DNA of 64,000 bases from Candidatus Caenarcanales bacterium. Lineage in GTDB: Bacteria; Cyanobacteriota; Vampirovibrionia; 2-02-FULL-35-15. The number at the start of each line of letters is the position of its first letter. The stretch's first letter is position 1. A model generated the notes under the pieces. It was given only the letters and a program-made list of their open reading frames with translations. It did not search any database and was not told where the DNA came from. The DNA is taken from positions 124,001 to 188,000 of the forward strand of contig JAGVKQ010000007.1 in the NCBI GenBank assembly GCA_020050435.1, written 5' to 3'. This document shows, in pieces, positions 4,722-23,537 of the stretch. Made by a program: the position numbers and the translations under genes.

Positions 4722-5432
4722 TCATATAGATAATTCTTTCACTCTATATTCAAATAAAAATTCAAATATCTCTATATGTCTCTTAGCTTCTTCAGGTGTT
4801 TTCCCCCAGCCGTAAATGCCATGTCCACGAAGGATAAGTCCTGGCATACTTTCATCTATGTAATCATGTGCAATGCTGGCAATATATTCCATATCTTGTG
4901 AGTTTTCAATAATAGGAATATTTACAGTGACATCATGTGTTTTAAAACCTAAACCTTTTAACATTTCAAGATTTGAAAACTGAATAAAACTCTGTTCTGT
5001 ATTTGACATAGATAATAGAGTTCCATTTGTAGTGTGGACATGATAAATAGCTTTTGCTTCTGTGAGTTTGTAAATAGCACTGTGTAAAAGGGTTTCGGCA
5101 GAGGGTTTTAAATCAGTTGCTTGAACTGATTTACCATTTTCATCTACTAATAAAAAGTCATCTTCAGTTAATTCACCTTTATCTTTTCCGCTAGCAGTAA
5201 TTAGAAATTCAAATTTCTGATTGTCATTCCCATGTAAATGGGAATCCAGAACTTGTGATTCGTTAGTAGATTCCCGATCAAGTCGGGAATGACACGGCTC
5301 GCTAATCAAAATCGAGAGATTCCCTGAAGTGCCCATCATCCACCCTTTTGAGTAAAAATGTCTGCTGACTTTTATAAGTTCATTTTTTGCATTTGCAATT
5401 TTTAATTCTTTATTGTCTAATTTAGTGCTAAT
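4722..5432 (-). CDS. mtnB: Methylthioribulose-1-phosphate dehydratase, with in-frame palindrome insertion and probable ATT start
   Basis: MtnB is a class II aldolase-fold, zinc-dependent enzyme that dehydrates 5-methylthioribulose-1-phosphate. Family signatures are GTSGNLS, ITASGKDKG, the zinc-binding HVH in YHVHTTNGT, and RGHGIYGWG near the C-terminus. The first ATG is at 5339 and opens directly at MMGTSGNLS. However, the same frame upstream encodes a typical MtnB N-terminal helix (NELIKVSRHFYSKGW) with no ATG, GTG or TTG back to an in-frame stop. An ATT at 5432 is preceded by GGAG at good spacing, inside the end of mtnX, so I extend to it (236 aa). About 29 residues between LSILIS and FEFLITASG come from a mobile palindrome; without them the length is normal. 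Confidence 0.85.
   Translation of the reverse strand: MSTKLDNKELKIANAKNELIKVSRHFYSKGWMMGTSGNLSILISEPCHSRLDRESTNESQVLDSHLHGNDNQKFEFLITASGKDKGELTEDDFLLVDENGKSVQATDLKPSAETLLHSAIYKLTEAKAIYHVHTTNGTLLSMSNTEQSFIQFSNLEMLKGLGFKTHDVTVNIPIIENSQDMEYIASIAHDYIDESMPGLILRGHGIYGWGKTPEEAKRHIEIFEFLFEYRVKELSI
5223..5293. repeat. Composite palindromic repeat inserted in frame in mtnB
   Basis: This 71-bp element is bounded by perfect inverted ends GTCATTCCC and GGGAATGAC. It contains two internal hairpins (ATTCCCAT/ATGGGAAT and ATTCCCGA/TCGGGAAT). It resembles the widely dispersed GTCATTCCCG-type repeats of many bacteria. On the minus strand it is translated as a CHSRLDRES...DSHLHGNDNQ segment, the usual peptide signature of such elements, and it is in frame with mtnB on both sides. 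Confidence 0.85.
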
Positions 5433-6124
5433 TTTTCTTCTCCGATTATTTTCTCTAAGCCATTTTTTATATCATAAAATGTGTCAAATGAAATGTATTT
5501 GATTTTTTCTTTCTTATCCTCATTCTCTTCGTCTAAATATTTTATCAAATCGCCTCTGGCAAAGACTATATCAGAGACCTTAGAGGGTGGAAAATCCGTT
5601 AAGCTGTCTCCTATGACTACTCTATAGAATCTATCAGTTGGGTATTTCTCTATAAGCTCTATTTTACAGCAACCGCAATCTCCGCATAAAGTACAGTTTT
5701 TAGGCAGGTAAGGATAATCTATTTTTATTTTCTCAGAGTCAAATTTTGCATTACTGCAATAAATTTTTATTTTACTTTTAAAGTCTTTTAAAATAGGATC
5801 AATGTGAAAATCTAATCCTCCACTAAGAACATTGAATTCAATATTATTTTCTTTACAATAATCGATAAAGTCAGAAAACCCATCTCTTAATTGAACTTCT
5901 TTTTTTATATATTCTATAATCTCTTCTTTTTTACTGCTCTCTATTAAGTTAAAAAGCATTTCTATGCCATCTTTTAAGGTTATAGTTCTCTCATATAAAA
6001 TCTTGTCTTTTATGCTTATCCATTCTGAAGGAGCAAACTTATCCATGATGGTTATGATAACGTCGCGTTTAGTTATCGTCCCATCAAAATCACAAAAAAT
6101 CACTGGCTTTTTACTGTTTTTCAT
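5417..6124 (-). CDS. mtnX: 2-hydroxy-3-keto-5-methylthiopentenyl-1-phosphate phosphatase (MtnX)
   Basis: This HAD-superfamily phosphatase follows the MtnW enolase in the Bacillus-type methionine salvage route and makes acireductone. It has the nucleophile motif CDFDGTIT (D12, D14), LSGG near residue 100 and GDSLTDFPPS as the acidic motif. A Cys-rich patch (CTLCGDCGCCK) around residue 145 matches the MtnX subfamily as I recall it. At 235 aa it has the family length. Its 3' end overlaps the proposed mtnB start by 16 bases, so mtnX and mtnB form one minus-strand operon. Having MtnX plus MtnW instead of fused MtnC indicates the two-enzyme version of the pathway. Confidence 0.88.
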   Translation of the reverse strand: MKNSKKPVIFCDFDGTITKRDVIITIMDKFAPSEWISIKDKILYERTITLKDGIEMLFNLIESSKKEEIIEYIKKEVQLRDGFSDFIDYCKENNIEFNVLSGGLDFHIDPILKDFKSKIKIYCSNAKFDSEKIKIDYPYLPKNCTLCGDCGCCKIELIEKYPTDRFYRVVIGDSLTDFPPSKVSDIVFARGDLIKYLDEENEDKKEKIKYISFDTFYDIKNGLEKIIGEEKLALN

Positions 6125-23389: not shown

Positions 23390-23447
23390 CTAGCGATTTT
23401 AAATCGTTCTGGATAATGAAATAAAGGTAACCTAAGGCTAAATTAAG

Positions 23448-23533
23448 TTTCAAGTTGTAAGTTACAAGTTGCAAGGAGAAAATAGAACTTTGAACCTTGG
23501 ACCTTGAAACTGGAAACTTGAGTCTTGAAACTT
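23448..23533. repeat. Inverted clusters of degenerate heptanucleotides upstream of tRNA-Pro
   Basis: Four tandem 7-mers of the type TTNCAAG (TTTCAAG, TTGTAAG, TTACAAG, TTGCAAG) end at 23475. After about 15 bases come six units of the complementary type (CTTGAAA, CTGGAAA, CTTGAGT...), ending four bases before the tRNA. The two halves can fold on each other into a long hairpin. Heptad repeats of this sort recall cyanobacterial short tandem repeats. Confidence 0.65.
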
Positions 23534-23537
23534 GTGT

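Follow-up and report, generated by a model that had tools for sequence, protein, structure and literature searches.

The mtnB gene of Candidatus Caenarcanales bacterium raises the question of how a conserved enzyme can carry a palindromic DNA element within its reading frame, what kind of element this is and whether the enzyme tolerates it. The gene lies in the window, by which we mean the whole stretch of 64,000 nucleotides that was analysed (contig JAGVKQ010000007.1, positions 124,001 to 188,000). A preliminary description, made from the letters of this stretch, had noticed in mtnB a 71-bp palindrome with perfect GTCATTCCC/GGGAATGAC ends, had taken it for a mobile-type repeat and had likened it to palindromic elements of Rickettsia.

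Results

Anatomy and copies of the palindrome

The palindrome is present in frame in mtnB with exactly the coordinates and the sequence of the preliminary description (Table 1); the full letters of positions 5223–5293 are GTCATTCCCATGTAAATGGGAATCCAGAACTTGTGATTCGTTAGTAGATTCCCGATCAAGTCGGGAATGAC. The tags of its two hairpins point outward, and the predicted RNA fold of the 71 bp has an energy of −31.3 kcal/mol (z = −3.24).

Table 1. Features of the mtnB locus (positions in the window)
Feature	Position	Strand	Description and basis
mtnB, methylthioribulose-1-phosphate dehydratase	4722..5432	-	Element in frame as CHSRLDRESTNESQVLDSHLHGND; TIGR03328, model pLDDT 92
mtnX-like phosphatase gene	5417..6124	-	Upstream of mtnB, overlaps mtnB start, same strand; TIGR01489 above cut-off
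71-bp composite palindrome	5223..5293	.	Head-to-head heterodimer of two CGTC-type REP hairpins; 9-bp ends GTCATTCCC/GGGAATGAC, perfect
REP monomer 1 (CGTC-1-like)	5222..5248	+	TGTC tag, 8-bp stem ATTCCCAT/ATGGGAAT, GTAA loop (4 nt), CCA tail; sequence compared with the definition in PMC3733652
REP monomer 2 (CGTC-2-like)	5267..5294	-	TGTC tag, 8-bp stem ATTCCCGA/TCGGGAAT, CTTGA loop (5 nt), CTA tail; sequence compared with the definition in PMC3733652
18-bp spacer separating the hairpins	5249..5266	.	Sequence
Example peptide across the insert junction of the predicted MtnB			ESTNESQVLDSHLHGNDNQK

CGTC REPs have been defined by a tag (CGTC, or TGTC/CCTC), an 8–9-bp stem that starts with AT, a loop of 4–5 nt and an unpaired tail of 3 bp, mostly CCA; they favour head-to-head dimers, and dimers or groups situated inside genes encode 20–30 amino acids (PMC3733652). 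The element of the window has the unpaired TGTC tag at both outer ends, both stems have 8 bp and are AT-initiated, the loops are of the prescribed length, and of the two tails that of monomer 2 is the one departure from the consensus. Like the CGTC REPs it is dispersed, occurs as head-to-head dimers and could not be linked to a transposase gene. All tested features of the published definition are found, and anatomically the element is an intragenic CGTC-REP dimer.

The host genome is a MAG of 2.49 Mb in 30 contigs and 96.6% complete. The paired GTCATTCCC...GGGAATGAC pattern detects eight complete copies with perfect ends in it and none with the reversed control, and a similarity search with the 71-bp element finds 15 places. 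A pattern allowing a gap of 12–42 nt between the ends gave no match because the real gap is 53 nt. Over 74 bp the mtnB copy shares 91% identity with a copy in prmC; with a copy in recJ it shares 85%, and the termini and the two hairpins are common to all three. In sister genera the best complete copies reach 76–78% identity. That copies are closer to each other within the genome than to those of sister genera suggests dispersal within the genome. Together with empty sites in relatives, these data bear out the view of a mobile-type repeat, the movement itself being read from this distribution; the copies would have moved as mobile DNA. Three of the eight complete copies, those in mtnB, prmC and recJ, share one open frame (CHSRLDRES...HGND). 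Taken alone, the window copy offers two stop-free frames, and the hydrophilic one is the frame in use.

The host gene and its predicted product

MtnB scores 203.8 bits against TIGR03328 (curated cut-off 137), and its residues H121, H123 and H194, the presumed metal-binding (zinc) histidines of the family, are invariant across 41 sequences. It had been claimed that the insert separates LSILIS from FEFLITASG where other MtnB proteins have a short loop, and that its removal restores normal length. About 31 residues lie between LS[IV]LI and FLITASG in the MtnB of the window and about six in three insert-free MtnBs of the same family. The net gain over the insert-free relatives is about 25 amino acids and the length is otherwise normal, so that both claims hold.

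The open frame of mtnB extends upstream of the ATG given by the ORF finder. Judged from the sequence, the start is most likely an ATT codon at 5430–5432 on the minus strand. This ATT is preceded by a purine-rich stretch, overlaps or abuts the end of the upstream gene and is kept in about nine of ten relatives (among them L010–L016 and L018), while L017 has an upstream ATG.

A codon comparison with nine relatives (204 shared columns) gave a dN/dS of 0.09–0.18, about 0.14, a value which is approximate because synonymous sites are near saturation and which is averaged over the whole branch, so that a very recent loss of function would not show. The identity of MtnB to its counterpart in the relative genome G007 is similar to that of the adjacent genes. 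The preliminary description had named a loss of MtnB function with other inactivating changes as the finding that would make the gene a pseudogene; no lesion besides the insert was found in mtnB, the frame being open and the catalytic residues intact. The gene thus appears to be under purifying selection, unlike a pseudogene, save perhaps for a very recent loss.

An AlphaFold2 model of MtnB, built with 41 aligned homologues, has a mean pLDDT of 92, with about 53 for residues ~35–64 (the insert and its edges) and about 97 for the remainder. The modelled fold matches the solved MtnB-type enzymes 2irp and 4m6r (human APIP), and the insert forms the disordered tip of a beta-hairpin between strands 28–34 and 65–70. 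The MtnB of a relative (L043), which carries a different and longer insert in a second loop, is modelled likewise, with a low-confidence insert on a confident fold. In these models, the insert sits at a surface position that appears compatible with the fold, both in loop A (window) and in loop B (relative).

In-frame inserts in other genes and genomes

In the same genome, prmC and recJ carry the repeat of the window in the same frame, as CHSRLDRESKNESQALDSHFHGND and CHSRLDRESIPLKDLDSHLHGND, respectively. For each of the two genes a single full match exists in the genome, which gives no hint of an intact second copy. A gene that resembles N-acetylmuramoyl-alanine amidase, judged by motif only, contains in frame a second palindrome family, starting GTCATTGCGAG. 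In-frame palindromes therefore occupy several unrelated conserved genes, namely mtnB, prmC, recJ and the amidase gene here and others in sister genomes.

Up to ten related genomes were compared. The named genomes of the family are MAGs; the nearest carry the name 'Candidatus Melainabacteria', and groundwater is the source of several. Loops that are empty in some relatives are differently filled in others; this concerns loops A and B of MtnB, two loops of PrmC, one of LigA, one of RecJ and, in two genera, the amidase. A search with the peptide of the second family gave 13 matches, nine of which lie in open frames of 221–1104 amino acids. Seven further hosts of this family were read: MtnA, BirA, Acs, CarB and HisH score above curated cut-offs, and the other two were named by eye.

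For a census of paired elements we used a 0.94-Mb sample of stretches with a coding share of 88.6% and counted an element as in frame when an open frame continued for at least 40 codons on either side of it. The sample contains 30 paired elements, compared with none in the reversed sequence, and 10 of the 30 lie in open frames. As this is less than the coding share, an element that lands in a gene probably does harm in most cases and disappears again. In line with purifying selection, elements are depleted in coding sequence, yet they are still common there.

Some further repeats were seen beside these inserts. The MtnB loops of L010, L014 and L015 hold another class of in-frame insert, short tandem repeats whose unit measures about 7 nt (one example is GAATGTAGAATGCAGAATGTAGAAT), and 7-nt tandem repeats are also found in the window at 23444–23534, upstream of ligA. 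The insert in loop B of the mtnB of genome G003 (L016) is compound: its GTCATTGCGAGG element runs straight on into a GTCATTCTGAGCGAAG element, as though one had landed in the other or next to it. A RimO-like gene, named by motif only, has a CGTC-type dimer near its end in two genera (L224 and L225). An MnmA-like gene (L124) contains the stretch KQSRSNSKDTLGTASGFSTPRSDT, by eye apparently a decayed palindrome of the second family. A further family of translated repeats seems to show in peptides like GADPCVCP...HIGLPLQ, which lie inside the Y1 transposases of the set L122, L123, L126 and L181, and in a similar peptide that precedes PrmC.

Discussion

Very probably, a non-autonomous mobile palindrome inserted in mtnB and is open in frame there, and the enzyme tolerates it as a surface loop; the same would hold family-wide. 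We suggest that a 71-bp CGTC-REP heterodimer entered a beta-hairpin loop of MtnB in an orientation and phase that happened to be stop-free and thereby would have lengthened the protein by a hydrophilic stretch of about 24 residues. With a stop-free frame and a hydrophilic peptide the fold of MtnB would be kept, its function presumably also, and the insertion tolerated. By the same process several palindrome families have probably entered tolerant surface loops of conserved enzymes time and again in this Melainabacteria family. Presumably the insert is translated and stays in the mature protein; its effects on fitness are probably neutral or mild.

Could mtnB instead be a recently inactivated pseudogene with the element as its first lesion? 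The blindness of dN/dS to a very recent loss and the lack of an ATG for the first residues of the ORF as listed would fit this. On the contrary, frame, catalytic residues, length and dN/dS are those of a working gene, the ATT start is common to most intact relatives, and like inserts are found in prmC and recJ, each the sole full match in the genome. We regard a pseudogene as very unlikely. Ordinary variation in loop length or a local duplication, with no mobile element involved, has hardly any probability left. Loops A and B of MtnB are indeed not equally long in all relatives, and some inserts consist of nothing more than tandem repeats of 7-nt period, but the dispersed copies, with their high identity, shared termini and two hairpins and the empty reversed control, already contradict such a reading. 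Repeats may also mislead the assembly of a metagenome bin. An artefact of this kind is nevertheless extremely improbable, as the element has merely 71 bp, the flanking halves of the gene are collinear and in frame, and like inserts occur in independent MAGs of different studies.

The insert might also have been selected for a function beyond tolerance, either as an RNA hairpin that controls the translation of mtnB or as a useful loop, and the same loops of MtnB, PrmC, LigA and RecJ are indeed hit in several genera. The inserts vary, however, in family, length and peptide, have no conserved motif and are absent in some genomes, as tolerance would predict, and we think selection for function improbable. 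Concerning the mover of the palindromes, Y1_Tnp genes are present in the genome itself and in five sister genomes, and REPs of the GTAG type are linked to RAYTs (PMC3733652), so a transposase of the RAYT/Y1 (IS200-like) kind encoded in the host genome comes into consideration. It is an unlikely mover: none of the nine Y1 loci of the family has a nearby GTCATTCC copy, the repeat is present in G001 and G002, in neither of which a Y1 gene was found, and CGTC REPs have been reported to be without a dedicated transposase (PMC3733652). In the ORFs adjoining the fetched copies no transposase was recognised by eye. On contig C8 a pair of copies lies 3 kb apart; the idea that they bound a larger transposon was rejected, no transposase being recognised between them. 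As no transposase could be linked to the palindromes, the case for the mobility of the inserted palindrome is built on their distribution.

Intragenic REPs and RPEs are already known as a general kind. The comparison with Rickettsia in the preliminary description was sound, since RPE-4 and RPE-6 of R. conorii have been assigned to the CGTC REPs (Di Nocera, De Gregorio, Rocco 2013, PMC3733652) and share this superfamily with the element of the window. The resemblance to the CGTC REPs extends over tag, stems, loops, tail, dimers with a short spacer, the lack of a transposase and in-frame intragenic copies; the host differs, being here a Melainabacteria lineage. Rickettsia RPE-1, RPE-4 and RPE-6 are likewise short palindromes of many families that lie in frame in conserved enzymes and are tolerated, the link at superfamily level being founded on the published definition. 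RPE-1 type elements measure 105–146 bp in the accounts of Ogata et al. (2000, 2002) given by PMC2229807, PMC10969869 and PMC3733652. Rickettsia live as intracellular parasites and have reduced genomes; here, in contrast, several genomes come from groundwater metagenomes. According to PMC2229807 and PMC10969869, the guanylate kinase of R. conorii is active despite a palindromic insert; that insert has been biochemically tested, whereas the one in MtnB is known from sequence and model. Wolbachia, a different lineage, offers protein-coding palindromes outside Rickettsia (Ogata et al. 2005, cited in PMC2229807). ERIC, YPAL/RU-2 and other MITEs are also non-autonomous palindromes fused in frame, but they are longer (about 100–170 bp) and several have target-site duplications (PMC2229807). 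That related species carry differing inserts at nearly the same place in a gene is described in PMC3733652 only for recB of Xanthomonas. The literature searched, with most subscription papers outside it, held nothing relevant on palindromes of Melainabacteria, and within these bounds neither this host nor the way in which the same protein loops are refilled time and again appears to have been reported.

Several palindrome families might form a standing supply of loop length, with the same tolerant loops (MtnB A and B, PrmC 1 and 2, LigA, RecJ, amidase) being refilled, swapped or eroded by different elements, so that translated REPs would be a chief reason why loops differ from genus to genus; we propose this tentatively and give it slightly less than an even chance. 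Translated palindromes have so far mostly been discussed as an oddity of the intracellular Rickettsia and Wolbachia. Here they occur densely in a lineage of Melainabacteria that is known from metagenomes of groundwater, and they strike the same loops in one genus after another. For annotation this is a warning that peptides like CHSRLDRES...GND and VIAR...SARND derive from repeats. The many natural insertions with matching empty sites make the lineage a good data set on how mobile DNA reshapes proteins and on which loops tolerate foreign peptides.
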